A program made the translations under genes and the position numbers. DNA of 64,000 nucleotides, from the NCBI RefSeq assembly GCF_022842045.1, contig NZ_JALHQI010000002.1, positions 1-64,000 on the forward strand. Reading direction: 5' to 3'. How positions within the stretch are numbered: the first letter of the stretch is position 1; the number at the start of each line of letters is the position of its first letter. This DNA is from Arenimonas sp. GTDB taxonomy: Bacteria > Pseudomonadota > Gammaproteobacteria > Xanthomonadales > Xanthomonadaceae. A model generated the notes under the pieces. That model made no database searches. It had not been told where the DNA came from and saw only the letters and a list, made by a program, of their open reading frames with translations. This document shows, piece after piece, positions 7,693 through 40,200 of the stretch.

Positions 7693-8115
7693 ATGCAACC
7701 GCAGCCCATCCTGCCCCCGATCACGCTCGGAAGCCGTGACCTTGCCCGCCTCGAGCAGCTGTTGGATTCGCCGGCCCTGCGCCGCCTGCCCGCGGCGCAG
7801 TCGCTGGGCGCCGAACTCGAGCGCGCCAAGGTGCTGCCGGCCGAGCAGGTGCCGGGCGACGTGGTGACCATGAACGCCAGCGTCACCTGCGTGGACGAAG
7901 TCAGCGGCGAACGCCACCACTTCACCCTGGTCTACCCGCAGGACGCCGACGTGACCACCGGCCGCGTTTCGGTGCTGGCACCGGTGGGCAGCGCCCTGCT
8001 CGGGCTGTCGGTGGGCCAGGTGATCGACTGGCAGGCGCCGGGTGGCCGGGCGCTGCGGTTGCGGGTGACCGAAGTGGCTGCCGCGCCGGAATCGGCCAGC
8101 GTCTTGCATCGCTGA
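7693..8115 (+). CDS. rnk: Nucleoside diphosphate kinase regulator (GreA/GreB-like)
   Basis: 140 aa; GreA/B C-terminal pattern LVYPQDAD...VSVLAPVGSALLGLSVGQVIDW. Confidence 0.85.
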   Translation: MQPQPILPPITLGSRDLARLEQLLDSPALRRLPAAQSLGAELERAKVLPAEQVPGDVVTMNASVTCVDEVSGERHHFTLVYPQDADVTTGRVSVLAPVGSALLGLSVGQVIDWQAPGGRALRLRVTEVAAAPESASVLHR

Positions 8116-8176
8116 CCCGGCACGGCAATAGTCGGGGCCTCCGGGCCCCGCCGCGGCCCCGCGAACAGGTGACACG

Positions 8177-8608
8177 ATGACGCCCAAGGGTTCCCGCACC
8201 GAGGAAAACCTCAAGCTGGCCTTCACCCGCGAGGCCGAGGCCAACCGCCGATACCTCTACTTCGCGCAGAAGGCCGACGTCGAAGGGTTCACCGACGTGG
8301 CGTCGGTGTTCCGCTCCACCGCCGAGGGCGAGACCGGCCACGCCCACGGCCACCTCGAATACCTCGAGTCCTGCAGCGACCCCGCCACCGGCCTGCCCTT
8401 CGGCGGCACGCTCGACAACCTGCGCTCTGCGATCGCGGGCGAAACCCACGAATACGCCGACATGTACCCGGGCATGGCCCGTACCGCGCGCGAGGAGGGC
8501 TTCGACGAGATCGCCGACTGGTTCGAGACCCTGGCCAAGGCCGAACGCTCGCACGCCAACCGCTTCCAGAAAGCGCTCGACGAGCTGGCGGCGCAGGCCA
8601 CGCCCTGA
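8177..8608 (+). CDS. Rubrerythrin family protein
   Basis: [30 protein letters not shown] and E..H diiron motifs. Confidence 0.85.
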
Positions 8609-10605: not shown

Positions 10606-12801
10606 TCAGCTGAAGATCTGGTTGCCGCCGTTCTTGTTGGCGATCTGGGCGGCGCGGGCCGCGCGCTCGACGATGCCGGCGGGGTCGCGCTCGTCGGGAC
10701 CGGCCTGGGCGACGCCGACGCTGACGCTGAGGCTGGGTGCGATGCGTGGGTCGATGCGCACCCGGCTGATGGCGGCCCGCAGGCGCTCGGCGTACTCGCG
10801 CGCCTGCAGCAGGCGGCGGCCGGGCGCCAGCACCAGGAAACCCTCGGGGCCGGAGCGACCGATCACGTCGCCGTATTCGATCTCTTCCAGCAGCAGCTCG
10901 GCCACCGGGCGCAGGCCGGCGGTAGCGCCCGCTTCGCCGCTGCCTTCGCGCAGCGCCGCGGCCTGGTCGAGCTGGATGCAGAGCAGGCTCAGCGGCACCT
11001 GCGTCAGGCGCGCGGTTTCCATGTGCTTGTCCAGGCGCTGGCGCAGGGCCTCGACCCGGAGCACGCCGGTGGCGGGGTCGGTATCGGCCGACTTTTGCGC
11101 CTTCACGGCGCCGGCGGCCTCTTCGCCGGCCATGATCGCCATCGCCGCGAACTCCGCGCACAGCGCCAGTTCGGCGTCGCTGTAGGTGACGTCGGCCTGG
11201 CGCTCGATCAGCAGCGCGCCCCAGCCGGGTTTCGGAATCGGGAGCGGGATCACCGCCAGCTGCACCTGTTCGAGCGGACCGGCCGGCCCGTCGAAATCGA
11301 TGCCCAGCTGCTGCGGCGCGCGCAGGCGGCTGAGGTTCTTGAGCAGGGTCGTGCGCTGGGCCAGCAGCTCGCGGTAGCGGCCCTCGGCCTCGGGCGGCTC
11401 GACCTGGATCATGTCCTCGCCGTGGAAGTGCATCGCCACCACCGCCGCCGACGTCTGGGTCAGCACCGGCTTGAGGCCATCGAGCAGGCGCCGGAACGCG
11501 ATCCACTTCAGGTCGCCGTCGGCCGCCGACTTCAGGCCGGCCTGCAGGCTTTCCACCAGGCGTTCGCGGGCCTGCTGGATTTTCTCGGCGGCCGTCGGCT
11601 CCGGCACCTCGGCCCGCTTTCGCATCGACCAGCGCTTCAGCCCGGCGCGTATCCAGGGCAAGGCCAGGTAGAGCGCGACGGTGACGGCCAGCATGGGCTG
11701 CCAGCCGTAGAGGTTGAACAAGGTGGGCGGCAGCACCTGGGCATCCGCCAGCACGCGCAGCACCACCGCGACCGCCGCGGCCAGCAGCGTCAGCAGCGGT
11801 GCCCAACGGTAGCTGCGCGAATCGAGCAGCAGCATCAGCAGGCAGGCCGCCAGCGCCACGCCGCTGCCGATCCAGGCCAGCCACTGCGTCATCAGCGGCG
11901 TCAGCACCCCGCCCAGCATGGCCCAGAGCGCCAGCAGCACCAGGCTCCAACCGAGTCCGCGCGCCCAGGGCACCAGGCCGGGCGCGGCCTTGGCCAGGCC
12001 ACTGTAGTAGCGCGTCGCCAGCACCATCGGACCCGCGCAAAGCAGCAGCAGGCCCTGCGGCACCGTCGCGCCGCGATCCGCCAGCAGCGACAGCTCCGGC
12101 AGCGAGTACAGGTGGCCGTTGATGCCCAGGCAGGCCAGCCAGATGCCCAGCGCCGCGCCGCCGACCGCCGGCGCGCCGGACCGGCTGTCTTCCACGTGGC
12201 GCACCAGCGAAAGCACCGCCACCAGCAGCAGCAGGCCGTAGGTGAGGCGGAAGAAGCGGCGCGCCTCGTCTTCGGCGGCGCGGGCGGTGGCGGGGTCCTG
12301 CAGGCGCAGGTGCAGGCCGCCATTCACCTTGCCCTGCAGGTGCAGGTAGAACTCGCTCTTGCCGGCCAGCTCGGCGGGAAGCGGCAGCAGGAAGTTGGCC
12401 GGCCAGGGATTGTCCTCCCCGGCGGGCCGGAAGAAGCTGTCCTCGGCCACCACCCGGGCGTCCGGCAGCAGCTTGAGCTGCAGGCGGTCCAGTGGCGCGC
12501 GGACGATGGCGAGCTGCCAGTTGGGGCCGCCGTCCCCGGGAAGTTCGGTGCGGATGCGGACCCAGATGTCGCGGCCTGGCCGGGCCTGGAACGAGAACCC
12601 GGGCGTGAGCACCGGCGTGAAGCCCGGCTGGGCCCGACCGGTGAGGATGTCGTCGAGGGTGGTGCCGACCGGCGTTTCCATCACGGCCAGGTCAAGCGCA
12701 GGCGCCGGGCCGGCGGCACGCACGGGCGCCGCCGACAGCGACAGGGCCATCAGGCTCGCGATCAGGAACGCCGGCAGATAACGCAAGCTGGAACTCCCCA
12801 T
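10606..12801 (-). CDS. 7TM sensory protein with C-terminal degenerate GGDEF domain
   Basis: Signal peptide, extracellular domain, several TM helices, cytosolic GGDEF-like region (DPATGVLRVEALRQRL...GRSGPEGFLVLAPG...SLSVSVGVAQ). Confidence 0.75.
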   Translation of the reverse strand: MGSSSLRYLPAFLIASLMALSLSAAPVRAAGPAPALDLAVMETPVGTTLDDILTGRAQPGFTPVLTPGFSFQARPGRDIWVRIRTELPGDGGPNWQLAIVRAPLDRLQLKLLPDARVVAEDSFFRPAGEDNPWPANFLLPLPAELAGKSEFYLHLQGKVNGGLHLRLQDPATARAAEDEARRFFRLTYGLLLLVAVLSLVRHVEDSRSGAPAVGGAALGIWLACLGINGHLYSLPELSLLADRGATVPQGLLLLCAGPMVLATRYYSGLAKAAPGLVPWARGLGWSLVLLALWAMLGGVLTPLMTQWLAWIGSGVALAACLLMLLLDSRSYRWAPLLTLLAAAVAVVLRVLADAQVLPPTLFNLYGWQPMLAVTVALYLALPWIRAGLKRWSMRKRAEVPEPTAAEKIQQARERLVESLQAGLKSAADGDLKWIAFRRLLDGLKPVLTQTSAAVVAMHFHGEDMIQVEPPEAEGRYRELLAQRTTLLKNLSRLRAPQQLGIDFDGPAGPLEQVQLAVIPLPIPKPGWGALLIERQADVTYSDAELALCAEFAAMAIMAGEEAAGAVKAQKSADTDPATGVLRVEALRQRLDKHMETARLTQVPLSLLCIQLDQAAALREGSGEAGATAGLRPVAELLLEEIEYGDVIGRSGPEGFLVLAPGRRLLQAREYAERLRAAISRVRIDPRIAPSLSVSVGVAQAGPDERDPAGIVERAARAAQIANKNGGNQIFS

Positions 12802-12924
12802 GTGGTCATGCCGCCCCCCGGCCCGCCCGATTCTATACTCGGCCCGGCCCCCGCGTTCAGCCCGGGAACGCCGGGGCGCCCGAGCCGGTAAACTGGGCGA
12901 CCCCAGCCAGCCCTCCCCGGACGC

Positions 12925-14673
<1,749 letters not shown>

Positions 14674-24640: not shown

Positions 24641-25866
24641 TGGCGGACGCGCCGCGCAAACGCCGCTGGCCCTGGATCCTGGCGGCCCTCGTCGCCCTGG
24701 CCGGGCTGGCTGCTGTCTGGGTCAATCGGCAGCTCGAACCCAACCGGCTCACGGCCACGGTGCTCGCGCGCGCCGGCGAGGCGATGGGGCTCGAGTTGAC
24801 GATCGAAGGCACGCCCGAGTACGCGCTGCGGCCCGAGCCGCGGTTGGTGTTGCCGGGACTGAAGGTGCGGCAGCCCGGTGCCGCCGCGCCCTGGATACTT
24901 CGCGCCGAGCGCGCCGAGGTTTCGCTGCCCTGGGACACGCTGACCGGCGGCGACTCGCGGGTGATCACGCGCCTGGAGCTGCAGCGGCCCGAGCTGGACC
25001 TGGACGCGTTCGAAACCTGGCAGGCATCGCGGCCGCCTTCCGCCGCGCCCTTCGAGTTACCTACGTTCACCGATGGGCTGTTGCTGCGCGACGGGCGAAT
25101 CCTTGGCACGGACTGGGCGATCGAAGCCTTCGCGCTCGAACTGCCCGAACTGGTGCCGGACGCGCCGGCGAGCGCCGAACTCTCCGGCCGCTTCGTGCAG
25201 CCGACGACAGAGATCGTGTTCGCCGGCCGGCTGGATGCCGATCGCGCCGGTCTCGCGACCCCGCTTGCGCTGGATGCGAACGGACGCCTGCGCAGCGGCG
25301 ACACCGACGTGCCCTGGACCCTGGCGATGGCCGGCCAGCTCGACGCGACCGGCGAGCCGCTGTCGATCTCTTTCGACAAGCTGCAGTGGCGCTCGGAGTC
25401 CCCGCTGCCCGACCTGGACGGCGCTGGCCGCGTGGACTACGGCGAGGCGCTGTCGCTGCAGCTCAAGGGCGAACTGCCGCGCTGGCCCGCCGGCTGGCCG
25501 GCCCTGCCCGAGCCGCTGGCTTCGTCGACGGCGGCCTTCGGATTCGCGCTGCAATACGACGGCCCGCCCGACGCCAGCGGGCCGTTTGCGCTGCTGCTGC
25601 GCCGGGACGAGACGGTGCTGGAAACCACGCTGGTCGTTCCCGGACTGATGGCCTGGCTCGACGCCGACGCCGCCAACCCGCTGCCGCCGCTGTCGGGCAC
25701 GCTGCAAGCGCCGCGCCTCGACGTCGGCGGCGCAACATTAGAGGGCGTGCGCATTACCCTCGATGACGAGGCAACCGACACCGCCCCTGCAGGAGGGACT
25801 TCAGTCCCGAACGCCGCGGCGATCGGGACTGAAGTCCCTCCCACAAAAGGCGACGGCGATGAGTGA
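24640..25866 (+). CDS. AsmA-like membrane-anchored protein
   Basis: N-terminal TM anchor; AsmA-type repeat architecture; upstream of mutY, where asmA-like genes are often found. Confidence 0.7.
   Translation: MADAPRKRRWPWILAALVALAGLAAVWVNRQLEPNRLTATVLARAGEAMGLELTIEGTPEYALRPEPRLVLPGLKVRQPGAAAPWILRAERAEVSLPWDTLTGGDSRVITRLELQRPELDLDAFETWQASRPPSAAPFELPTFTDGLLLRDGRILGTDWAIEAFALELPELVPDAPASAELSGRFVQPTTEIVFAGRLDADRAGLATPLALDANGRLRSGDTDVPWTLAMAGQLDATGEPLSISFDKLQWRSESPLPDLDGAGRVDYGEALSLQLKGELPRWPAGWPALPEPLASSTAAFGFALQYDGPPDASGPFALLLRRDETVLETTLVVPGLMAWLDADAANPLPPLSGTLQAPRLDVGGATLEGVRITLDDEATDTAPAGGTSVPNAAAIGTEVPPTKGDGDE
25788..25845. repeat. Near-palindromic dispersed repeat, copy 1 (in the AsmA-like 3' end)
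   Basis: tgcAGGAGGGACTTCAGTCCCGA...TCGGGACTGAAGTCCCTCCcaca; arms also match copy at 50358-50421. Confidence 0.88.
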
Positions 25867-26899
25867 TTTCGCCCAGCGCCTGCTGCAGTGGTTCGACCGC
25901 GACGGCCGCCACGACCTGCCCTGGCAGCACCCGCGCACGCCCTACCGCGTCTGGCTGTCGGAAATCATGCTGCAGCAGACCCAGGTGCAGACCGTCATTC
26001 CGTACTACCTGCGGTTCCTGGACGAGCTGCCCACCCTGCCCGACCTCGCCGCCGCCGACACCGACCGCGTGCTGGCGCTGTGGGCGGGCCTGGGCTACTA
26101 CGCCCGCGCGCGCAACCTGCACAAGGCCGCGCGCGTTTGCGTGGCGGAACACGGCGGCGAGCTGCCCCGCGATTTCGAGGCGATGGCCGCCCTGCCCGGC
26201 ATCGGCCGCAGCACCGCCGGCGCAATCCTGGCGCAGGCGCACGGCGACCGGTTCCCCATCCTCGACGGCAACGTGAAGCGCACGCTGGCGCGCTACCACG
26301 GCATCGGCGGCTGGCCCGGCAGCAGCGCGGTGGAAAAGCAGATGTGGGCGCTGGCCGAACAGCACTTGCCCGACAAGCGCCTGGCCGACTACACGCAGGC
26401 GATCATGGATTTCGGCGCAACCCTGTGCACGCGCCACGACCCCGCCTGCGTGCTGTGCCCGCTGCAGGACGAATGCGTCGCGCGGCGCGAGGGCCGGGTC
26501 GAGCAGCTGCCCGAGGCCAAGCCCGGCAAGCCGCTGCCCGAGCGCCGCACGCTGATGCTGCTGGTGCGCGACGCGCGCGGCCAGGTGCTGCTGGCGCGCC
26601 GCCCGGAGACCGGGGTTTGGTCGGGGATGTGGTCGCTGCCCGAGGCCGCCAGCCACGACGAAGCGCGCGATTTCCTGCGCCCGCACGCGCTCGACTTTGA
26701 TGCCGCCGAGCCGCTGCCGCTGATCGAGCACACCTTCAGCCACTACCGCCTGCGCATCGAACCGATGGGCTGGCGCGTGGCCGAGCCCGCCGCCACGATC
26801 GGCGTGGATGCCGGATTGCGCTGGCAGCCCCTCGACCGCCTGCACGAGGTCGGCCTGCCCGCCCCCGTCAAGAAACTACTGGGAAGCCTGACGCCATGA
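25859..26899 (+). CDS. mutY: A/G-specific adenine glycosylase
   Basis: Hh[21 protein letters not shown], Fe-S cysteines [17 protein letters not shown]. Start trimmed to MSDFAQRLL. Confidence 0.95.
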
Positions 26900-27168
26900 G
26901 CCGCACCGTCTTCTGCGAAAAACTCCAGCGCGACAGCGAAGGCCTGGCCTTCGTGCCCTGGCCCGGCGCGCTGGGCAAGCGCGTGTTCGAACACATCGGC
27001 CGCGAGGCCTGGCAGCAGTGGCTGGCGCACCAGACCATGCTGATCAACGAAAACCGCCTCTCGCCCATGGACCCCAAGCACCGGGCCTTCCTGGAGGCCG
27101 AGATGGAGAAATTCCTGTTCGCAGGCGGCGCCGAGAAACCCGCGGGCTACGTGCCGCCCGAGGCCTGA
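26896..27168 (+). CDS. yggX: Oxidative damage protection / Fe(2+)-trafficking protein
   Basis: [43 protein letters not shown]. Confidence 0.96.
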
Positions 27169-27173
27169 AGACA

Positions 27174-27202
27174 CGAAGCCCGCGCAACTGGCGCGGGCTT
27201 CG
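27174..27202. terminator. Bidirectional hairpin between convergent genes
   Basis: CGAAGCCCGCGC-AACT-GGCGCGGGCTTCG inverted repeat. Confidence 0.6.
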
Positions 27203-27226
27203 CGGTGAAGCACGGACGACCGGGGA

Positions 27227-27682
27227 TCAGCTGGCGCTGGAGGCCACGGCGTTTTCCCGGGCGGCACGCATCGCGGCCACGTCCACCTTGCGCAAACCTT
27301 CGATCTTGCAGCGCTCGCCCTGGCTGCCGACGATGTAGCCGTTCGAGGTGTTCATGGTCTGCATCTCGTTGACCATGTCGATGCGGATCGACAGCGAGTT
27401 GGACATGCGGCGGCAGCCGGCGTCCTGCTTGAGGTCGACCAGCCAGGCGGTGCGCTGGTTCTGCCACACGAGCAGGTGGTGGTTGCCCAGCACTTCGTAC
27501 TTGTAGGGCTCGTTGAGGAAGCGGACCTTCTCGACCGGCTCGCCGGCGTGGGCGCGGGCCAGTTCGAGGTTCTCGGCGTAGCGGGCCTCGCGCTCTTCCT
27601 TCGATTCCCGGGCCATGGCCGGGGAGGACAGGGAAACCACGAGGGCGGCGGTGATTGCGGCAAGCACGGGGCGGACGGACAT
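27227..27682 (-). CDS. Hypothetical exported protein (DUF6491-like)
   Basis: Signal peptide; QRTAWLVDLKQDAGCRRM...DRC-like conserved Cys pattern. Confidence 0.6.
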   Translation of the reverse strand: MSVRPVLAAITAALVVSLSSPAMARESKEEREARYAENLELARAHAGEPVEKVRFLNEPYKYEVLGNHHLLVWQNQRTAWLVDLKQDAGCRRMSNSLSIRIDMVNEMQTMNTSNGYIVGSQGERCKIEGLRKVDVAAMRAARENAVASSAS

Positions 27683-27876
27683 TGCACAGCTCCTGGTTCG
27701 GACCCCAAGCGGGCCACGTCCCTACCCTAACCTCGACCACGGCCGACGCGTCCCCACCCCCGGCCAGGCGTTCATAAGGAATTTAGGGCCCTGAACCGGC
27801 TTGCCCCGGCCAGCCGGGTTCCGCTATGATTCGCCGCTCGCCCGGGCCCGCCCGGTGCGCATGCCAGCCAAATCCT

Positions 27877-27952
27877 GGCCGAGTAGCTCAGTTGGTAGAG
27901 CAGGGGATTGAAAATCCCCGTGTCGGCGGTTCAATTCCGTCCTCGGCCACCA
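27877..27952 (+). tRNA. tRNA-Phe (anticodon GAA), encoded CCA
   Basis: Cloverleaf with acceptor GGCCGAG/CTCGGCC, anticodon loop TTGAAAA, TTCAATTC T-arm, 3' ACCA. Confidence 0.95.
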
Positions 27953-27966
27953 TATTCGTCAAGCAC

Positions 27967-28995
27967 TTACGAAAGCCGCACTAGTTGCGGCTTTTGTTTG
28001 TGTGTCAAAAACGTGCCATCGATGCGGCTGGCCGCGCCCCGCAGGTGATCGGCCGCCAGATGCGCGTACCGAAGCACCATCTCGTAGCTCGCCCAGCCTC
28101 CCAGCTCCATCAGCTCCTGCAGCGGCGTGCCGTTCTGGACGTGCCAGGACGCCCAGGTGTGCCGCAGGTCGTGCCAACGAAAGCCGGGCTCGATGCCCGC
28201 CCTTTCCACCGCTTGCTTCCATGCCCTGGTCGAACACCGGGCGACGGGCTGGCCTTGGTAGGCGAACACGTATTCCCGATGCCCTCCCAGACGCCGACGC
28301 AACACGTCGAACGCGTCCTCGTTCAATGGAACGCCAATGGCCCTGCCGGCCTTGGCCTCGTCCGGATGGATCCACGCGACGCGACGGCTCATGTCCACCT
28401 GGTCCCATCGCAGGTAAGACACGTTGCGCTGCCGGAGCCCCGTCGTAAGCGCCAGCTGCGCCATATCCCGTAGGTGGAGCGGCAACTCGGTCAGGAGCCG
28501 CCGCGCCTCGTTCGGGGAAAGGAAGCAAATACGCTTCTTCGGTTCCCGGAAGAGCCGGACCTTGGGAATGTGATCCACCCACTCCCAATCGTCCTTTGCC
28601 CGTCGCAAGATCGACCGCACCAAGGCCAAGGTGCGATTGGCGGTGGAAGGGCTCGACTGAGCGGACTTCTTCTCGCCAATCTTCTCGACCACCTCCCGCG
28701 TCACCTGACTCAACATCAGGTGGCCCAGGAAGGGATGCAGCCAACGCAGGTTGGCCACATCCTTGTCGTGCGATCGCTTGTGGCTGGTTTCCTTCACCCA
28801 CCTCACAGCGGCGTCCTGCCAGCTGCGATCAGGCTTCACGCCTAACCGCTGTTCTTCCCAGTACCTGACCTTCAATCGGTCGAGGAATTCCTGGGCTGCG
28901 GTTTGGTCGGGAGTCCCAGCAGAGCGGCGTATTCTTTCGCCGTTCGGCGTGGTGAAGGCGACCCACCAGACGTCACCCCGTTTTGATAGCCCCAT
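27967..28995 (-). CDS. Tyrosine recombinase (phage-type integrase)
   Basis: Catalytic motifs TTGLRQRNVSYLRW, HDLRHTWASWH, LGGWASYEMVLRYAHL; immediately 3' of tRNA-Phe. Confidence 0.93.
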   Translation of the reverse strand: MGLSKRGDVWWVAFTTPNGERIRRSAGTPDQTAAQEFLDRLKVRYWEEQRLGVKPDRSWQDAAVRWVKETSHKRSHDKDVANLRWLHPFLGHLMLSQVTREVVEKIGEKKSAQSSPSTANRTLALVRSILRRAKDDWEWVDHIPKVRLFREPKKRICFLSPNEARRLLTELPLHLRDMAQLALTTGLRQRNVSYLRWDQVDMSRRVAWIHPDEAKAGRAIGVPLNEDAFDVLRRRLGGHREYVFAYQGQPVARCSTRAWKQAVERAGIEPGFRWHDLRHTWASWHVQNGTPLQELMELGGWASYEMVLRYAHLAADHLRGAASRIDGTFLTHKQKPQLVRLS

Positions 28996-29135
28996 GAAGA
29001 TTTCTCCTCGTTGGAGCCACTTAACGGCGCTTGCCTGTGGGCAGCGTAAAGCTGACCGAGATACGTAGCAAGTGAATCGCCCCGGGTTCTCTAGACATCT
29101 CCAGGCCGTACATTACGGCAATTACGGAGGTGGGT

Positions 29136-29408
29136 ATGGGTACCAAGCAGTACACGGACGAGTTCAAGGCCGAGGCGGCCCGGCAAGTGATCGAGCACGG
29201 CCGTTCAGTGCGTGAAGTCTCGACCCGGCTGGGAGTCAGCATCGATTCGATGTACGCCTGGGTCCGGCAGCACCGCAAGGCGCCGGTGGAACGGCAGGCC
29301 GATGCCGGGCTTGCCGCCGAGAATCGGCGGCTGCAGGCCGAGGTGAAGCGCCTGACCGAGGAGCGCGACATCCTAAAAAAGGCCGCAGCGTACTTTGCCA
29401 AGGGGTAA
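29136..29408 (+). CDS. IS3-family transposase OrfA
   Basis: HTH_Tnp_1 type: KQYTDEFKAEAARQVIEHGRSVREVSTRLGVS...LTEERDILKKAAAYFAKG. Confidence 0.93.
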   Translation: MGTKQYTDEFKAEAARQVIEHGRSVREVSTRLGVSIDSMYAWVRQHRKAPVERQADAGLAAENRRLQAEVKRLTEERDILKKAAAYFAKG

Positions 29409-29425
29409 GGGCGAAGTACGCGTTC

Positions 29426-30280
29426 ATGAAGGCGCATCAGCAGGAGTTCCGCGTGACCACGATGTGCCGAGTGCTGGGCGTCCAGCGCGCCGGCTTCTAC
29501 GCGTGGCTGGCGGCGCCTGTCAGCGACCGGGCGAAGGAAGATCGCCGGCTCTCGGGACTGGTCAAGCAGGCCTGGCTCGAAAGCGGCACGGTCTACGGAT
29601 ATCGCAAGGTGGCCGGTGATCTTCGGGACTTGGGAGAAACCTGCGGCAAGCATCGGATCTATCGTCTGATGCGGGCGGAAGGGCTCAAGGCGCAGGTCGG
29701 CTATGGTCGCCGACCGAGGCCGCGAGGCGGCCTGCCGTCGACGGTGGCGCCGAACCGGCTCGACCGGCAGTTCACGGTGCCGGCTGCGAACACGCACTGG
29801 GTTACCGACATCACCTATATCCGAACCCACGAAGGTTGGATTTACCTGGCTGTCGTCTTGGATCTGTTTTCGCGCCAGATCGTCGGTTGGGCCACGCAGG
29901 GCCACATGCAGGCCGACCTGGTGCTGCAGGCGCTGACGTCGGCCGTATGGCGTCGCAAACCGGAGTCGGGGCTGATGCTTCACTCGGACCAGGGCAGCCA
30001 GTTCACCGGAGGCGACTGGCAGGCCTTCCTCAAAGCCCATGGCATCGTTTGCAGCATGAGCCGACGCGGTAATTGCCACGACAACGCGGTCGCTGAGAGC
30101 TTCTTCCAGCTGCTGAAGCGGGAGCGGATCCGTCGCAAGATCTACCTGACCCGGGCAGCGGCCCGGAGTGATCTGTTCGACTACATCGAGATGTTCTACA
30201 ACCCCCGCCGCCGCCACGGCTCCAACGGAGGCTTGTCTCCGGTAGAGTTTGAAAGGCGGTCGGGACATTCAGGCCAGTAG
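29426..30280 (+). CDS. IS3-family transposase OrfB (DDE integrase core)
   Basis: VTDITYIRT...HSDQGSQFTG...NCHDNAVAESFFQLLKRE DDE motifs; A6G slippery run (cctAAAAAAGgcc) near orfA end. Confidence 0.95.
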   Translation: MKAHQQEFRVTTMCRVLGVQRAGFYAWLAAPVSDRAKEDRRLSGLVKQAWLESGTVYGYRKVAGDLRDLGETCGKHRIYRLMRAEGLKAQVGYGRRPRPRGGLPSTVAPNRLDRQFTVPAANTHWVTDITYIRTHEGWIYLAVVLDLFSRQIVGWATQGHMQADLVLQALTSAVWRRKPESGLMLHSDQGSQFTGGDWQAFLKAHGIVCSMSRRGNCHDNAVAESFFQLLKRERIRRKIYLTRAAARSDLFDYIEMFYNPRRRHGSNGGLSPVEFERRSGHSGQ

Positions 30281-30560
30281 ATGTCTACGAAACCCGGGGC
30301 GATTCAAACAGACTAGCCTGCGCGATACAGCTGAATCAGGTGAGATTGGACTCCAAATAGCACCGCTATTGAAATTGGGGGACTCGGTGGAGCCCCGTCT
30401 CGGCGCCGTAGTACTACCCCGGGTAGCTCAGGGTCGTTAACCAGCCGAGCCAGGCGGCCAGGCACGAGGCTCCCAACGAATCAACGGTACCTGCTGCCCC
30501 CCTCCAGCGCTTAATCGTGAGGCATGGGAGAGCTGCGGCGTATCGATAACGTGCGCGTGT

Positions 30561-31013
30561 CTATTCGGACCTGTACTCAGCGCAACTCTCTATCCGCTCA
30601 TTCACCGGCTGATCGACTTCGAAGTCGGGATCGGAATCTTCTCCAATGAACTGAAACGTCTTAACAAGGCAACTTTCGATTTCTCCGTCCGTAACACTGA
30701 CCTCGATAACCCGTTGAATGACGTTGTGGGTGGACGCCTCCGGAAGACCGCAGCCGCTCAAAGTGGCTGTTCGTCGGGAAACTGCAACCCAAGTGAACTT
30801 CGCATTCACTCCCTGGCGCTCTGCATCAGAAGGAGGCCCTAAGGCCTCTAAACCCGCGGCGTTCGAACCCAACCGTTGGAACTCGGAAAAACCGTCCTTG
30901 AGCTCTTGCCCGACGACCACTTCCGGCATGCCTTCGATGACCACAGGTTTGCAGTCTACATTGGTGTCTTGGCAACCAAGGAGCAAGAGGACTAAAAAAG
31001 TAGTAATCCTCAT
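30561..31013 (-). CDS. Small Cys-containing lipoprotein; candidate immunity protein
   Basis: Lipobox MRITTFLVLLLLGC; ATG begins 4 bp after the stop of the upstream RHS-tip ORF; AT-richer than flanking genes. Confidence 0.65.
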   Translation of the reverse strand: MRITTFLVLLLLGCQDTNVDCKPVVIEGMPEVVVGQELKDGFSEFQRLGSNAAGLEALGPPSDAERQGVNAKFTWVAVSRRTATLSGCGLPEASTHNVIQRVIEVSVTDGEIESCLVKTFQFIGEDSDPDFEVDQPVNERIESCAEYRSE

Positions 31014-31017
31014 CTCA

Positions 31018-31537
31018 TCACCATCCTAAGTTATTGCAGTTGAAGCATTCAAATTCGTAGTTGTAAATCTGACTGTGAGTAAATGTCCCATGCCCCACCT
31101 CATGGGCGAGCAGAGACGCCAGTGAACAGGGGAACTTAGAAAACGCAATTGGATAGATCGCTACGCGGCCACTTCCCAGGTACTGGCCGTACATCGCAGG
31201 GATCGGCTTGCCAGCTGCGTCCCGAAGGAGCTTACCCTTTGCGTCTCCTTTGTACGTCTGTGGATGGTACTCAAACTGAGCGTTCTGGAGGTCCGTAATC
31301 AAGTCCTGCTTCTCAAACGGATCAATACAATAGTTCTTCTTTCGATCGCCTTCACCACAGTCCATGCACTTTGTGCAAGTCTTCATCGTAGCGACAGCAT
31401 CGTCCAGAGCGCGCCTCATCAGCATTTCTTGGTTTTTATCAAACCCGATGAACGTAGCAAGCCCGAAGACATCGATGTTCCGCGTTGGACTTCCCTTCCC
31501 GTAAAGATAAGTAGCCGTGCTGACCTGAGACGGATCG
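31018..31537 (-). pseudogene. Displaced RHS C-terminal tip with HExxH metallopeptidase-like toxin domain, 5' end lost at IS boundary
   Basis: Frame open from the IS edge: ...[29 protein letters not shown] (end-of-RHS-core-like) then KTCTKCMDCGEG... and LLAHEVGHGTFTH. ORF track shows only the internal ATG part 31018-31425. Confidence 0.7.
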
Positions 31538-31589
31538 TGTAGCCAGTTGGCTGGTGAGTTCTCTACCCTTAACAGGCAAGGAGAGCTCC

Positions 31590-31853
31590 ATGAAGAAGCG
31601 ATTCACCGACGAGCAGATCATCGGCATCCTGCGCGAGGCCGAGGTCGGCGCCATGTCGATCAAGGCCCTGTGCAAGAAGCACAACCTGACCGAGCAGACC
31701 TTTTTCCGCTGGCGCAACAAGTTCGGCGGCCTGGACGTGCCCGACGCCCGGCGGCTCAAGGACCTCGAGTCCGAGAACGCCCGGCTCAAGCGGCTGGTGG
31801 CCGAGCAGATGCTGGTCATCGACGGGATGAAGGAGATCGTCCGAAAAAAATGA
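31590..31853 (+). CDS. IS3-family transposase OrfA
   Basis: [47 protein letters not shown]. Confidence 0.95.
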
Positions 31854-32689
31854 TGACCCCGTCGGAACGACGCGACACGGTCCAGGTGCTGGTCCGTCGG
31901 GGACTCTCGCAGCGAAAGGCCCTTCATTACCTGGGCCTGAGCCGCCGCATCGCCAGCTACGCCCCGCGCCAGGCCGCCAAGGACCAGGCGGTGGCCGAGC
32001 GACTGCTCGCCGCGTCGCCGAAGGTGCCGCGCTTCGGGTATCGCCGGATGGCGGCGTGGCTGGATCTGGGCGAGGCCCGGGTGCGGCGTCTGTGGCGCCA
32101 GCTGGGGTTGAACATTCCCCGCCGCCGGCCGCGTCGCCGCCGTTCCGGCAACGACATTCGCCTGCCGGGCGCGGTTCGCCCGAATGCGGTTTGGAGCTAC
32201 GACTTCGTCCACGACCAGATGGTCGACGGGCGCGCCCTGAAGATGCTGTGCGTGATCGACGAATACACCCGCGAATGCCTGGCCATCGAGGTCGGGGCCA
32301 GCCTGCGGGCGCAGGACGTGATCCTGACCTTGTCGCGGCTGATGCGGATCTACGGCAAGCCGGCTTTTGTCCGCTCCGACAACGGCGCCGAGTTCACCGC
32401 GGCTAAGGTGATGCGCTGGCTGCGCGACGCGGCGATCGGTCCGGCCTTCATCGCGCCGGGCAGCCCTTGGCAGAACGGGTTCGTCGAGAGCTTCAACGGC
32501 AAGCTTCGGGACGAGTTGCTGAACCGGGAATGGTTCCGCAGCCGCGCCGAGGCAAAGGTGCTGATCGAACGCTGGCGGCAGTTCTACAACGAGCAGCGAC
32601 CGCACAGCGCCCATGGCTACAAGCCCCCGGCGACCATTCGCCGGAACTGGTCGGAACCCGATACCATCCACCCCGGACTCACTGGCTGA
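31850..32689 (+). CDS. IS3-family transposase OrfB
   Basis: DDE core WSYDFVHDQ...[10 protein letters not shown]...[21 protein letters not shown]; overlaps orfA (ATGA) after an A7 run. Confidence 0.95.
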
Positions 32690-32732
32690 TTGGCTACAAG
32701 TTCCATACTCAGGTCACCCGCCCTCAAGAAAA

Positions 32733-32757
32733 AGGCCCGGCCAAAACGGCCGGGCCT
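32733..32757 (-). terminator. Intrinsic terminator of the S8 peptidase gene
   Basis: AAGGCCCGGCC/GGCCGGGCCTT hairpin with T-run on the minus strand. Confidence 0.75.
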
Positions 32758-32776
32758 TGGGGTCACGCAGGTACGG

Positions 32777-35284
32777 TCAGTCTTCGGCCGACTGGTACTG
32801 CACCTGGAACCGGCTGGCGGCCACGGCGTAGGCGGCGCGCGTCACCGCCTGGCCCGGATCGAAGTAGGCCTTGATGGTCGGCTGCAGGTCGAACGGCCCC
32901 TGCACCAGCGCGAACCGTGCGTTGATCACGCCCGTATCCAGCGCGTACTGCACGTAGCCGCGCTGGCTGGCCGGGATCGCGCCGGCGTCCTCGAGGGCGA
33001 TGCGCTGGCCGTTGAACAGCACGGTGAGCGGACCATTGAACGACGTGGCGAGATCCTGCAGGCCCTGGGCCTGCACCAGCGCATAGGCCAGGTCGAGGCG
33101 GCTCACGTTGGCACCGGGCTTGAACTGCCCGTTCACCAGGCGCATCACGCCGGCGTCGTCCTGGCCCAGGTCGCGCAGCGGCGCACCCTTGGCGATGGCC
33201 GCTTCGGCGTAGGCGTACTCCCGGGTGCTGGGCGACACGTCGCCAAAGCTCGGCACGCCCGACAGCGGCAGCGACTGGCGGATGCTGGCGCCCATCAACA
33301 GGTACTGTGCCAGCTCGGCCCGCTTGAGCTGCTGGTCGGGGCGGAACTTCCTGTCCGAGTAGCCGTCCACGAGGCGATTGGCGACGGCGAACTCGATCGC
33401 AGTGCGCGCCGGATGCGAGTGCACGTCGTCAAGGCCCGTGTAGCCGCCGCTGTTGATGAAGCTGATCTCGCCCTCGATGATGCCTGGCGCGGCGACGCCA
33501 TTGGTGCTGCGGGTCGGATCCACCGCCACGCCGGACACAGAACCGATGCCGCTCACCGAGATCTTCCAGGTGCCGGCCTTGCCGGGCGCGCCGGTGGTGA
33601 TGGTGCTCCCGAGCACCGGCAGCGCGATCGACGAACCGTAGCGAACGCCATCCGGATCGGTCAGCACGATCGCCACCGTGTTGGTGTCGGTGGTGGCGCG
33701 GGCCGAGACGAAGGCCACTTCCGGGCCAACTTCGAACGCAACTTCCTCCGGCTCGCCGACCGGCGAGAACAGGATTGAGAACGGCAGCGGCTCGCCGCCC
33801 GGGGCCAGCAGCGCATTGCTGTTGAACTCGCGCAGGACGTTCACGGTACGGCCGTAATCGGTGCGCAGCCCCTGCGCCGCCGCGACCGCGGCATACGCGT
33901 TGACGTGGCCGGCACCGGCCTCCCAGGCCAGGCGGCCGGTCATGTTGGCGGCGGTTTCCTCGAGGATGGACTTCGCCTCCATGGGCGTGAGGTTCGGGTT
34001 GGCCTCGAACATCAGGGCGAGGATGCCCGACACGTGCGGAGTCGCCATCGAGGTGCCGCTGGAGTGGGTGTAGAACGGCAGGTGCGCCGGCGCCATCGCC
34101 GCCGCGTCCTGCTCCGCCGACAGCGCGCCCAGTGCGCTGGTGCTGGCGCGGGTGGAGATGATGTCCACGCCGGTGGCGACGACGGTGGGCTCGTTGAAGT
34201 AAGTCCACGACTTGCCGTCCGGCATCGTGAAGGTGCCGCTCTCGCCGCGGTTGCCGCGCGAGGAGAACGACGTGAGCACGCCATCCTTCTCGCCCGCGCC
34301 GACCGAGATCACCCAGGGCGCCTGCGCGTACGGGTTGTGGGTGTCTTCGCCCGGGCCGTCATTGCCGGCGGCGAAGACGCTGACGATACCGCGCTTGTAG
34401 AGCTCGTACGTCGCGATGCTCACCGGGTGCATCGGATCGAACTTTCCCGAGGTGCCCCAGGAGTTGCTGGTGACGCGGATCGGGTGGTCGAAGCTGAACT
34501 GGTGCGTCGCCGCATAGTCCAGGCCGCCGACCGCGTCCAGGATGAAGAGTGCGCCGCCCGAGCCGTAGCCCACCAGCTTCGCGCCGGGCGCCACGCCGCG
34601 GTACAGGCCGCCCGAACGCTCGCCGGTGCCGCCGACGGTGCCGGCGACATGGGTGCCGTGGCCCGAGCCACCGAGGTCGGTGTTGAGCTGGTCCTCGACA
34701 TACAGCATCGGCGAGATGCCCGGGCCCGCGAGGTCGTTGGCCAGGCTGGCGAGGATGTTCTGCGCGGCCTGGACGTTCTGCACGACGTTCTCGCCGAACT
34801 TCAGGTCCTCGTGGGTCGCGTCGATGCCGGAGTCGTTCACCACCACGGTCACGCCGCGGCCGCTGTAGGGAATCGCGCGGCTGAAGTCGGCCGGGTTCTC
34901 GACCACCCGCGCGGCGCCGCTGATCTCGCGCTGCTCCTTGTTGAAGAAGCGCAGCGGGGCGTTGAAATAGATCGAAGCAACGTCGTCGCGCGCGGCCAGA
35001 GCGCGGATCTCGGCGGGGGTCGCCAGCGCGCCGGCGATCGGCAGGGTGTGCATGTGCACGCCGCGGTCGATGCCCAGGTCGCGCAGCGCGGCGATCTGGG
35101 CGGCGGTGACCGGTCCGGACTGCTCGTAGCTGATGACGATCTGCAGGTCCTCGGTGGCCGGGGTGCTGGCGAGCAGGCGGGTGAGTTCAGGGTCGATCCG
35201 GGCCTCGGCGACCGCGAGGCCGCTGGCGAGCATGCCGACCGACAGGGCCGACAGGCGGGCAATACGTGAAATGGTGACAGGCAT
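32777..35284 (-). CDS. Secreted S8 (subtilisin-like) serine peptidase with C-terminal SLH-like repeats
   Basis: Asp VVNDSGIDATH, His GSGHGTHVAGTVGG, Ser SSGTSMATPHVSG; C-terminus with IEFAVANRLVDGYSDRKFRPDQQLKRAELAQYL SLH signature. Confidence 0.92.
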   Translation of the reverse strand: MPVTISRIARLSALSVGMLASGLAVAEARIDPELTRLLASTPATEDLQIVISYEQSGPVTAAQIAALRDLGIDRGVHMHTLPIAGALATPAEIRALAARDDVASIYFNAPLRFFNKEQREISGAARVVENPADFSRAIPYSGRGVTVVVNDSGIDATHEDLKFGENVVQNVQAAQNILASLANDLAGPGISPMLYVEDQLNTDLGGSGHGTHVAGTVGGTGERSGGLYRGVAPGAKLVGYGSGGALFILDAVGGLDYAATHQFSFDHPIRVTSNSWGTSGKFDPMHPVSIATYELYKRGIVSVFAAGNDGPGEDTHNPYAQAPWVISVGAGEKDGVLTSFSSRGNRGESGTFTMPDGKSWTYFNEPTVVATGVDIISTRASTSALGALSAEQDAAAMAPAHLPFYTHSSGTSMATPHVSGILALMFEANPNLTPMEAKSILEETAANMTGRLAWEAGAGHVNAYAAVAAAQGLRTDYGRTVNVLREFNSNALLAPGGEPLPFSILFSPVGEPEEVAFEVGPEVAFVSARATTDTNTVAIVLTDPDGVRYGSSIALPVLGSTITTGAPGKAGTWKISVSGIGSVSGVAVDPTRSTNGVAAPGIIEGEISFINSGGYTGLDDVHSHPARTAIEFAVANRLVDGYSDRKFRPDQQLKRAELAQYLLMGASIRQSLPLSGVPSFGDVSPSTREYAYAEAAIAKGAPLRDLGQDDAGVMRLVNGQFKPGANVSRLDLAYALVQAQGLQDLATSFNGPLTVLFNGQRIALEDAGAIPASQRGYVQYALDTGVINARFALVQGPFDLQPTIKAYFDPGQAVTRAAYAVAASRFQVQYQSAED

Positions 35285-35504
35285 CACACTCTCTCCGTTC
35301 TGGGTTAGCCGCTTTCGGGTTTGTGCGGCTCGCCAAGCAGCTTCTGCCCGCCCCCCGCCGCCACCAATCCGGCAGAGCCCCCAACCGGCGTGGGGGAAAA
35401 CCCCTAGAGACTTGCGGCCGGCTGCTGGCCTAAGATGCAGCGGTCGCCCGGCACAGGCGCGACGAAATGACGCATCGGACGCGCACCCACCCACGGAGTT
35501 CCCG

Positions 35505-36335
35505 ATGACTGCCGTCGCTCGAAAGCTGTTCGCCCTCTTGCTCGCGCTGTCGCCGTTGCCGGCGCTGGCGCAGCCCGTCCCCGTCACCGTCGAGGTTTCC
35601 GGGAACTCCGCCATGGTGCGGATCGGCGGAAGCGTCGCGCCGCTGGCCGACCTGCGCCTCGATTTCGACGACGCCAGCGGTCTCAGCGCCGCCTCGCTGG
35701 GCGTCAGCGCGGAGTTGGTGAACCCGGGTGCCGCCTCGGTGCTGTCGCGCTTGCCCGTGGGCGGCGGCGCGCTCGTGCCGGCGGAGCTTCCGCTGATGAT
35801 CACCATCGAACCTGCCTCGCTCGGCGGCCTGTCGTTCCGCCGCCTGGTGCACGTCGAGCTGCACACCCACGCCCTGGTCTACACCGCGGGCTCGCGGTAC
35901 CGCTTGCTCAAGGCACCGCTGGGCGGCGGCTTCCGGGACATCACCGGCTCCGTCAGCCCCGGCAGCGTGCGCACGCGCGGCACCACCGGCGGCTTCTCGC
36001 AGTTCCTGGTGGTGCTCGACGCGCGCCCCACGCTCGACGTCGTCTCGGCCAAGCTGGCCCGGCTGCGGGCCGAGGCGGCCAAGCTGCCGGCGCTGGAGGC
36101 GGCGCCACTGCAGGCGCAGCTGGATGCGATCGAGTCGGGCCTGGGCGACGAACGCTACGCGGACGCCATCGGCGCGGCCGAGGCGATGCGGCAGCGGGTG
36201 TCGGCGCGGGCGGGCCTGGCCATCCCCCAGGAGTGGCGTGCGCTGCGTGACCGCGACAACGTCGCGGGCGAGCTCCTGGCCGGCCTCGACACCCTCGTCT
36301 TCAGCATCGGCTACCTTCGCGACCACGGCGACTGA
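35505..36335 (+). CDS. Hypothetical exported protein
   Basis: Signal peptide MTAVARKLFALLLALSPLPALAQ; divergent from S8 peptidase. Confidence 0.75.
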   Translation: MTAVARKLFALLLALSPLPALAQPVPVTVEVSGNSAMVRIGGSVAPLADLRLDFDDASGLSAASLGVSAELVNPGAASVLSRLPVGGGALVPAELPLMITIEPASLGGLSFRRLVHVELHTHALVYTAGSRYRLLKAPLGGGFRDITGSVSPGSVRTRGTTGGFSQFLVVLDARPTLDVVSAKLARLRAEAAKLPALEAAPLQAQLDAIESGLGDERYADAIGAAEAMRQRVSARAGLAIPQEWRALRDRDNVAGELLAGLDTLVFSIGYLRDHGD

Positions 36336-36397
36336 CGCCCCATGGACCGCGCCCCAGCGCTGGCGCCGCCGGCCACCGGCGGCGCTAAGATGGGGCC

Positions 36398-37258
36398 ATG
36401 CCCGCGCGCCTGACCGCCTACCTACCCGAGTGCGCCGCCGAACGGTTCGTGCTGTCCGGGGACGGCCCCCATCCGATCGGGCGCGCCGACGGTTGCGCGG
36501 TGCAACTGGCCCACGCGTCGGTGTCGCGCCGGCACGCCACGCTGGCGTTCGCCGGGGATAACTGGATCCTCGCGGACGCGGGCAGCAAGAACGGCAGCTT
36601 CATCGATGGCGTCGCGTCCGACGGCCTTCCGCGGCGCGGCGGCGCCTGGCTTCGATTCGGTGACGTCGCCTGCGAGCTGGAAATCATCGACGACGCGACC
36701 CTGGCGCGCACTCGCCTCGAATCGGGCCAACGCCGGGACGCCGCCACCGCACTCACCCTCGCCCTCGCGCGCGAACCCGCGCGCGTCGGACTGCTGGAGG
36801 CAACGCTGGACGCGATCATCGACCTGGCCGGCGCCGAGCGCGGCATGCTGCTGCTGCCCGGGAAGGATGGCTTCACTCCGCAGGCGTGGCGGGGATTCGC
36901 CGCGGGCACCGACGCGGCGAAATTCGCCGGCAGCACCACGGCCCTCGCCCAGGCCCTCCGCACGCGCCGGCCGGTCGTCGCCCACGACCTGTCGCTCGAG
37001 TCGGCGCTGGCGGGCCAGGCATCGGTCGTCTCGGCCGGACTTCGCGCGCTGGCCTGCCTGCCGCTGGTGCTGGGCGAGGACGTCCTGGGCCTGGCCTACG
37101 TCGACAGCCGCCGCCCGGGCGCCGCGATCACGCGGATCGACCTGGAGCTGCTGGAGGCCTTCGCGGAGCGCGCAACGCTCTGGCTGGCCGCGCGGCGCAA
37201 CCAGGCAGCGCTCGCGCCCGGCGCGGCCGCGTTGCCGCCGGGCGGAGGCGCGGCGTGA
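36398..37258 (+). CDS. FHA-GAF domain protein
   Basis: FHA core IGRADGCAVQLAHASVSRRHATLAF...GSKNGSFIDG; C-terminal GAF-like region. Confidence 0.88.
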   Translation: MPARLTAYLPECAAERFVLSGDGPHPIGRADGCAVQLAHASVSRRHATLAFAGDNWILADAGSKNGSFIDGVASDGLPRRGGAWLRFGDVACELEIIDDATLARTRLESGQRRDAATALTLALAREPARVGLLEATLDAIIDLAGAERGMLLLPGKDGFTPQAWRGFAAGTDAAKFAGSTTALAQALRTRRPVVAHDLSLESALAGQASVVSAGLRALACLPLVLGEDVLGLAYVDSRRPGAAITRIDLELLEAFAERATLWLAARRNQAALAPGAAALPPGGGAA

Positions 37259-40200
37259 GCGATGCTCTTCTTCCAGGCGACGACCCAACGCTGACCGGCT
37301 CCGGCGCGGTCGTGGACCTCGCGCCCGGCACGCGGCTCGCGGATCGCTTCACCATCGAACGGCGCATCGGCACCGGCGGCATGGGGGTGGTCTACCGCGC
37401 CCGCGACGAGGATTTGGGCATAACGGTCGCGCTGAAGCTGCTGCGCAGCGAGCTGGCCGCGCGTCCCGAGGCGTTCGAGCGCTTCCGGCAGGAACTGCTG
37501 CTCGCGCGACAGGTATCGAGTCCGCGCGTGGTCCGCATCCACGACATCGCGCGGGACGGAGATCGCTGGTTCATCAGCATGGATTTCGTGGACGGCCAGT
37601 CGCTGGACCAGTGGCTCGACCACCGCGGCCCGGTGGACGTCGAACAGGCCCTGGCCATCGCACGGCAGATCGCCGAGGGACTGCGGGCCGCGCACGCGAG
37701 CGGCATCGTCCATCGGGACCTCAAGCCCGCCAACGTCCTGATCGACGCTGAGGGCAACGCGCTCATCAGCGACTTCGGCGTGGCGCGCTCGCTCGGCGCC
37801 ACCGGCATCACGCACACCGGCGCCATCGTCGGCACACCCGACTACCTGGCCCCGGAACAAGCCCGCGGCGGTACCGTGGATGCCCGGGCCGACCTCTACG
37901 CGTTGGGCCTGATCCTCTACGAAATGCTGGCGGGCGAGCCCGCGTTTGCAGGTGCGACCGCCGCCGAGTCCATGGCGCGGCGGATGGTCTCCGGCCCGCC
38001 CCCCATCGAGTCCCGGCGCGCCGCGCTGCCCCGTTGGGTAGCCCGCCTGGTGGCGCGCATGCTTCGCCCCACTCCGGCCCATCGCTTGCGCGATGCCGAA
38101 GCCGTGATCCAAGCCATCGACGCACGCCAGGTCCCGGCGGCGCTGCCGCGCGCGGCGTGGCCGCTGCTGGGCCTTGCCGCGGCAGGCGCCCTCGCCGCGC
38201 TGGCGCTGCTGGCGCCCTGGCGGGATCCGGTCCCGGCCATTCCCCCGGCGCCACCACGGATCGTACTGATGGCGGAAGCCGGTGCCGACGATCCGGTGCT
38301 GGGCGGTGCCGCCGAGGCACTGCGGCTGGGCCTGGAAGGCCAACCGGGCGTCGCCGTCGCCGATGGCGAGCGGATCCAGTTGGCCCTGGCCCAATCCGGG
38401 CTGGCCGGCAAGGGCGCCGCGGACGACGTGGCGCTGCGAAGGGCGCTGCCTGCGGATCGCATCGTGCGCCTGCGGTCAGTGCGATCCGGCGACGGCCTGG
38501 CGTTCGAAGCGGTGATCAGTGGCGACGGCCGGGCGCCACAGGTGGTGGCCGGCCCGTCGCGCAGCTCTCCGGCGGCGGCCGCGAGGGACCTGCTGCCGCT
38601 GCTTGCGGTCGAACTCTCGGTTCCGGCCGCTGGCCCGGTGCTGGCGGGCGACGAGGACCTCGAGGCCTACGGGCAGGCACTCGCCCTGCTGCGCGCCGGC
38701 CGCGCCGAGGCCGCCGCCGATGCCCTCGAAGAGATCGCCGAGGCCAATCGCGACCATGCCCCCGCACTCGCCGCGCTGGTGGAGGCGGCACGCATCTCGG
38801 GTCGCCGCGCGCTGGCGCTCGACACCGCCCGCCTCGCCGACCAGCTTCCTGGCCAGCCGCTGGGCGAGCCGCTGGCGGCCTGGCGCGCCGCGCTGGAGGG
38901 CGACACCGAGCGGGCCATCGCGTTGGCCACCGCGGCGACGCCGGGCCTTGAAGGTGATCCTGGCCACCAGCTGCGGATCGCCGAGATCGCCCTGGATGGC
39001 GGCAGCCTCGAGGTCGCCGAAGCGAGCCTCGCGATCGCCGCAGCGAACGACCAGCAGGATCCGCGCGCCTGGTTCCTGCGGGGAAAGACCGCGATTCTCA
39101 GGGGTGAGCACCGGGTTGCGGTCGAGGATCACCTCGTGCGCGCGCTGGTGCTGTTCAAACGCTCGCGCGACCTGCGCGGCGAGGCCGAGACGGTGAACGC
39201 CCTCGGCGTCGGCTACGCCCGCCTGGGCCAGACCGGTGACGCGCAGGAGAACTACGAAAAAGCCCTGGCGCTGCGCCGCGATCTGGGGGATCGGCGCGGC
39301 ATCGCCAGCAGCCTGCGAAACCTCGCCCAGATCGACGTTTTCAGCGGGCGTCTCGACCAGGCCGCCACGCGACTGGCGGAAGCACGCGGCCTGTTCACGG
39401 ACCTGGGCGACAACCCGGGCATCGCCGCCGTCGAAAACGAACTCGGCCTGCTGGAAGAGGAGCGCGGCAACTACCCGGCGGCGCTGGCGGCCTATCGCCG
39501 GGGCCTGCGCAGCCGCGAGCGCAGCGGCGATCCCCTCGGCATGGCCGAGAGTCTGAACAACGTCGGCTTCGCGCATTTCCAGCTCGGCGACTATGACAAC
39601 GCGCGCGCGCTCTGGCGGCAGGCGCGCGATGCCTTCGCCGGCCTCGACGACGCCAATGGCGTGGTGCGGGCCGAGCAGAACCTGGGCTTGCTGGAGACCG
39701 CGCGCGGTGACTGGAAACGGTCCCGCCTGCTGCTTGAGGAGTCGCTGCAAACGGCCGAGCAGCGGCAGATGCTGGAGGAAGCCGCAGTGAGCCTGCGCAA
39801 CCTGGTGGAGCTGGAAATCCTCGAAGGCAACCTGGACACCGCCGAACAACAGCTCGATCGGGCCAGCCGCCTGTTCGAGTCGCGGCAGGACCAGCGCGGG
39901 CGCACCGATGCCGCCCTGCTCGCGGCGAGGATCGCCCTGGCCCGCGGAAACCCCGCGGATGCGCTGGCCTTGATCGACACGCTGCCCGACGGCGCCGGGA
40001 CCGGAACGCCGGAGCAGGCCACGCTCGCGCAACTGCTGCGCGCGCGCGCGCTGGCGGGCACGGATCGCGATGACGACGAACGGCAGGCGCTCGACGACGC
40101 CGCGGCGCTGGCAGACCGCGCCGGCATCCGCGTGCTGCAGCTCGAGGCACGCGTGCTGTCTTCACGGGCGCCGGACGCCGCGCTCGACGACGCGGTGCGC

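Follow-up and report, generated by a model that had tools for sequence, protein, structure and literature searches.

Orphan rhs-CT/rhsI modules have been described in Salmonella LT2, where they lack translation starts and where one was revived by recombination across 522 bp of 95% identity (PMC3967940). Metallopeptidase toxins are likewise known from interbacterial competition: VgrG2b/Tpe1 acts in the periplasm as a metallopeptidase toxin, and its immunity proteins are either periplasmic proteins or lipoproteins (PMC6899460), and zincin toxins carried on RHS proteins have already been catalogued (PMC3482391). In a 64,000-nucleotide stretch of Arenimonas sp. DNA (hereafter the window), we identified a locus that is in all probability an orphan RHS C-terminal (RHS-CT)/immunity module, in which a severed toxin domain, likely an envelope zinc protease, is followed by the gene for a lipoprotein that would protect against it. 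The original prediction, made from the DNA letters, had proposed a displaced RHS-CT toxin/immunity cassette at this position, and the proposal is supported by fusion of the domain to RHS proteins elsewhere, by a recurrent partner gene and by a predicted zincin fold.

The minus-strand reading frame of the toxin is open from upstream of position 31536 and ends with a stop codon at 31020-31018; reread on that strand, its translation, including the HEVGH motif and the Cys-rich stretch, is identical to the one first quoted. The terminal inverted repeat of an adjoining insertion sequence, IS-B (TGACCTGAG...TGTAGCCA, ends read by eye), runs on to 31521, and the DPSQ(V) residues in this frame are therefore IS-encoded. 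Genuine RHS core sequence starts at about 31520 (exact ends by eye) with TATYLYGKGSPTRNIDVFGL, and the last ~20 codons of the core (31459..31520, minus strand) align with the core end of RHS homologues (..DPIGL..STYSYV..PL.SFD..GL). The claim that an RHS core end precedes the domain thus stands for this remnant, the 'DPSQ' residues belonging instead to the end of IS-B. The toxin domain itself, a predicted zincin metallopeptidase of ~146 residues assigned by homology, AF2 and Foldseek, occupies 31018..31458 on the minus strand with its stop codon included, so that core end and domain together span 31520-31021. With a family HMM built solely from five other members, the window sequence being excluded, the toxin frame was the only one of the 894 window frames to score significantly (E 1.6e-30; next frame 0.72).

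These five other members come from five genomes, all of the host order. Three strong relatives were found among 199 genomes sampled from the host family: Lysobacter sp. cf310 (locus L012/L029), the Xanthomonadaceae MAG KatS3mg126 (L013/L028) and Thermomonas flagellata SYSU G04041 (L014/L030). Two more (L026 and L027) came from a profile search covering 399 genomes of the order. Scanning genome contigs with the window domain alone confirmed no relative, whereas alignment A3 recovered three; the broader alignment A4 proved too heterogeneous to be searched with patterns. The class sample yielded no more than three partial matches, all weak, no further member was found in a phylum sample of 399 genomes, and neither the plasmid and phage collections nor PADLOC gave a match. 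Two additional weak candidates, L005 and L006 (E 0.004-0.007), showed no readable RHS C-terminus on inspection and were dropped. All five relatives terminate RHS proteins with RHS_repeat matches, and fusion of the domain to RHS proteins elsewhere, which had been set beforehand as a test of the prediction, was accordingly found at five other loci. Downstream of the Thermomonas flagellata member (L014:10000-13925) lie two more RHS C-termini with HEQSH and HEATH motifs; the second of these cassettes (HEATH...SCVSC) matches the family HMM only weakly (E 0.12) and is a possible distant relative that we do not claim.

Within the family, the window domain shares 31-41% identity over the aligned part with four of the RHS C-termini and 23% with the fifth, with pairwise z values of 7.9-39.7 to the C-termini of L012, L013, L014, L026 and L027. 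The HExxH and CFxC motifs are common to all six members in the alignment, and the four closest members additionally share CxxCxxCG and seven invariant Cys residues. A candidate column for the third zinc ligand, inferred from the alignment, is occupied by His in four of the members and by Glu in the other two. An AF2 model of the domain, obtained with the six sequences in the alignment, reached a pLDDT of 85.6 and a pTM of 0.82, placing HExxH on a predicted helix at residues 113-122 ahead of a final helix at 128-139. The top Foldseek matches to this model in the PDB were deuterolysin (E 0.0056), GfMEP and AsaP1, all of them zinc endopeptidases; the five best matches had probabilities of 0.98-1.00, yet E values of only 0.006-0.012 and TM-scores of about 0.5. 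A zincin fold, also set beforehand as a test, is thus what AF2 predicts, with zincin peptidases as the closest structural matches. The original prediction had not recognised the domain as a named family, in agreement with which it gave no significant match in Pfam or NCBIfam; a sequence search of the PDB returned nothing meaningful, and our literature search for a comparable RHS toxin, whether aspzincin or from Lysobacter, brought up nothing relevant. The likeliest role of the domain is that of a small, disulfide-rich zinc peptidase, which would bind zinc and cleave protein in the envelope of a competing cell.

Deuterolysin and AsaP1, of the M35 family, are the best structural neighbours of the AF2 model. 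M35 aspzincins use an Asp as third ligand, within a GTxDxxYG-type motif. Assignment of the domain to this family was rejected, since no Asp of that kind follows HExxH and the Pfam M35 model gave no match. The family resembles Tox-MPTase1-5 and other catalogued zincin toxins in placing a zincin-like HExxH domain at RHS C-termini (PMC3482391). It differs from Tox-MPTase1-5 in its Cys-rich CxxCxxCG and CFxC motifs and in having a recurrent partner, whereas no immunity partner is given for them in the table of that catalogue (PMC3482391). The domain has no Pfam-A or NCBIfam match that would place it in Tox-MPTase1-5, although these libraries may not model all five. VgrG2b/Tpe1 is, by analogy, the nearest functional parallel: it too has a C-terminal HExxH domain with the immunity gene directly downstream, and the immunity protein of Tpe1-Tpi1 is likewise exported, being a lipoprotein in some members (PMC6899460). 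The carrier of the window family is, however, RHS and not VgrG, the domain has no match to Pfam DUF4157, and VgrG2b is absent from the 28 Foldseek matches.

The lipobox protein said to begin 4 bp after the toxin stop was found as described: the ORF at 30561..31013 on the minus strand encodes 150 aa with LLGC at residues 11-14, and its product is homologous to the partners in L012, L013 and L014. A small ORF adjoins the toxin at all six loci, and in the five relatives it carries a lipobox or an apparent signal peptide (judged by eye) and lies no more than ~50 bp from the toxin stop or overlaps it. In four of the six loci these ORFs form one homologous family. The window lipoprotein is related to the L014 partner (pairwise z 15.3) and the L013 partner (z 9.5), and the L012 partner is tied to it mainly through those two, by alignment and profile search; pairwise comparison, which covered the partners in L012, L013, L014 and L026, detected no homology with the L026 partner. 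A profile of the four partner proteins also retrieved stand-alone copies in other genomes, where no toxin accompanies them. One (L059:4071-4517, genome G157) follows an RHS gene whose toxin is a different one and has its own lipoprotein-like partner, another (L061) lies in an unrelated context, and a third (L060) has an internal stop. The proposal that the adjacent lipoprotein is the partner of the toxin is consequently backed by homologues downstream of three relatives' toxins and by stand-alone homologues elsewhere, and the lipoprotein would neutralise the toxin. AF2 modelled the window lipoprotein with modest confidence (pTM 0.62), and Foldseek returned nothing significant for that model. 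A BamE fold for the immunity protein was considered and is not supported, the Pfam BamE model being matched by the L026 partner alone and below threshold (E 0.0013, 18.9 bits; cut-off 23.2), with no significant Foldseek match.

A different reading takes the domain for a processing peptidase or a eukaryote-directed effector instead of an antibacterial protease toxin. Metallopeptidase domains of polymorphic toxins can indeed be releasing peptidases (PMC3482391), and the Foldseek neighbour AsaP1 is an extracellular toxic endopeptidase according to its PDB title. Here, however, the domain follows the RHS core at the very end of the protein, which is the toxin position, with nothing further to release, and the adjacent gene for an exported partner argues for an antibacterial target; we therefore hold that reading to be distinctly improbable and retain that of an antibacterial envelope protease. 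The four RHS carriers whose start could be read (all but that of L013) each open with what looks by eye like a Sec signal peptide, and in intact relatives a Sec-type signal peptide seems to direct export of the carrier. Delivery by a type VI secretion system (T6SS) was set aside: the RHS homologues have no match to a PAAR domain, VipA occurs in four of the six host assemblies and is absent from that of the window and from G074, and the window carrier is lost. Under the proposed mechanism, an intact RHS carrier would leave the cell by way of its Sec-type signal peptide, its C-terminal domain would attack the envelope of a competitor, and the envelope-anchored lipoprotein would bind the toxin domain, protecting the producer and its kin. 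Immunity would be needed in the periplasm of the producer because a Sec-exported toxin, if such it is, passes through there.

The module is bounded by two IS3-family-like elements, both on the plus strand and both with inverted ends and transposase-like ORFs. IS-B (31521..32716) severs the RHS gene, and a search of its own assembly found no second close copy, returning partial matches of 71-73% only. IS-A (29073..30306) lies on the downstream side, with transposase-like ORFs at 29130-29408 and 29426-30280 and related copies in the genome. No target duplication was seen at either element. In another species of the genus (L050:12204-12439, genome G043), a segment 91% identical to the end of IS-A lies ~5 kb from the corresponding S8 peptidase locus. 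Between IS-A and the lipoprotein gene, a second RHS unit has left a decayed piece of its core on the minus strand at 30387..30432 (..LSYPG*YYGAETGLH.. versus NLRYPGQYFDAETGLH). This piece matches, at 83% over 46 bp (E 1e-6), an RHS core that the same genome carries on contig C37, with an alignment score of 52 against a shuffle maximum of 26. As this decayed core lies downstream of the lipoprotein, the module would derive from an RHS array and not from a single last gene. Contig C37 itself (L017:8891-12560) has a second array broken up near IS elements: its RHS core fragments lie in tandem, differ in their C-termini and have IS3-family-like transposases on either side (7762-8595 and 12590-13375).

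Next to IS-A lies a tyrosine integrase (27967..28995, minus strand; Pfam Phage_integrase, E 1.9e-32), which adjoins the tRNA-Phe gene (27877-27952) and marks an integration site. The GC content is 0.50-0.54 locally, against ~0.70 in the surroundings. A same-genus relative aligns on both flanks (24658-27954 and 32726-40000, 89-91%) and has between them a different 8-kb insert with a duplicate of the tRNA end, from which we conclude that tRNA-Phe is a variable island site. The module is low-GC cargo at this site, which looks like a hotspot for conflict genes. The window belongs to a MAG contig, and assembly could have produced some of the IS arrangement; one might go further and attribute the whole locus to chance resemblance or misassembly, given the two IS elements and the lack of target duplications. 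Such an account is scarcely credible: the homology is far beyond chance at the E of 1.6e-30 given above, the order and spacing of toxin and partner are the same in other genomes, including cultured strains, and both flanks match the same-genus relative. In that relative (L048:7300-15800, genome G165), the 8-kb insert at this tRNA-Phe site includes a HipA-like ORF of 444 aa and a primase/helicase-like ORF of 796 aa (names assigned by eye).

The open toxin frame offers its earliest ATG, GTG or TTG codon at 31425, a position already inside the first of the long helices predicted for the domain, and with no start codon ahead of that helix the window toxin is probably silent. The carrier and export signal are absent from this copy, IS-B standing in place of the rest of the gene. 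A fragment without start codon, carrier or export signal is an orphan in the rhs-CT/rhsI sense, and the locus resembles the Enterobacteriaceae modules in being a displaced C-terminal fragment with a linked immunity gene and no start or export signals (PMC3967940). Unlike those modules, it follows no main rhs gene at the locus; IS elements enclose it within a tRNA-Phe island, and it retains much less of the core (PMC3967940). The lipoprotein gene retains its own start and lipobox. We thus infer that a silent toxin beside a possibly active immunity gene is the likeliest state of the window copy, and the lipoprotein may protect against relatives that carry the toxin.

A closely related account, which we rate at a little under even chances, treats the toxin remnant as pure debris, the lipoprotein alone being kept as an orphan immunity gene against relatives with the full toxin. 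It is compatible with the explanation preferred here and differs by giving the toxin part no role. A whole domain lacking start codon and carrier fits it, as do the immunity homologues found free of a toxin (L059, L060, L061); against it, the toxin frame is free of stops and frameshifts and the motif residues are kept, so that either the loss is recent or the frame has been preserved, and the candidate immunity gene may not be expressed. Use of the module as a silent reservoir, recombining onto a full-length RHS gene and then deployed like the Salmonella orphan, seems unlikely. The mechanism has been demonstrated in Salmonella LT2 (PMC3967940) and RHS cores are present on contigs C32 and C37 of the same genome, but recombination in Salmonella used 522 bp at 95% identity (PMC3967940), whereas only ~60 bp of core are left here and the remnant core has no DNA match to C37 or C32. 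In the preferred reading, an RHS toxin C-terminal domain and its immunity gene would have been stranded between two IS elements on a low-GC island at tRNA-Phe; having lost carrier, export signal and start codon, the toxin would be silent, and the immunity gene left behind may still guard against toxin-bearing relatives.

What is new here is an unnamed zincin domain family with a recurrent envelope partner, a toxin/immunity family that the searched Pfam and NCBIfam libraries lack and of which three examples lie in named genomes. A more comprehensive description, which we offer tentatively and think somewhat doubtful, would unite a disulfide-rich zincin family whose third ligand switches between His and Glu, Sec-exported RHS carriers devoid of PAAR, and a diverging family of lipoprotein immunity proteins. 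The module also exemplifies the stranding of such cassettes by IS elements that insert at a tRNA island, with immunity genes left behind. It leads to the specific prediction of an envelope protease with a lipid-anchored antidote, and the apparent Sec signals on the RHS carriers raise the testable question of delivery without a T6SS, which, if true, would mean that Gram-negative bacteria can deliver an envelope protease on RHS proteins independently of the T6SS.
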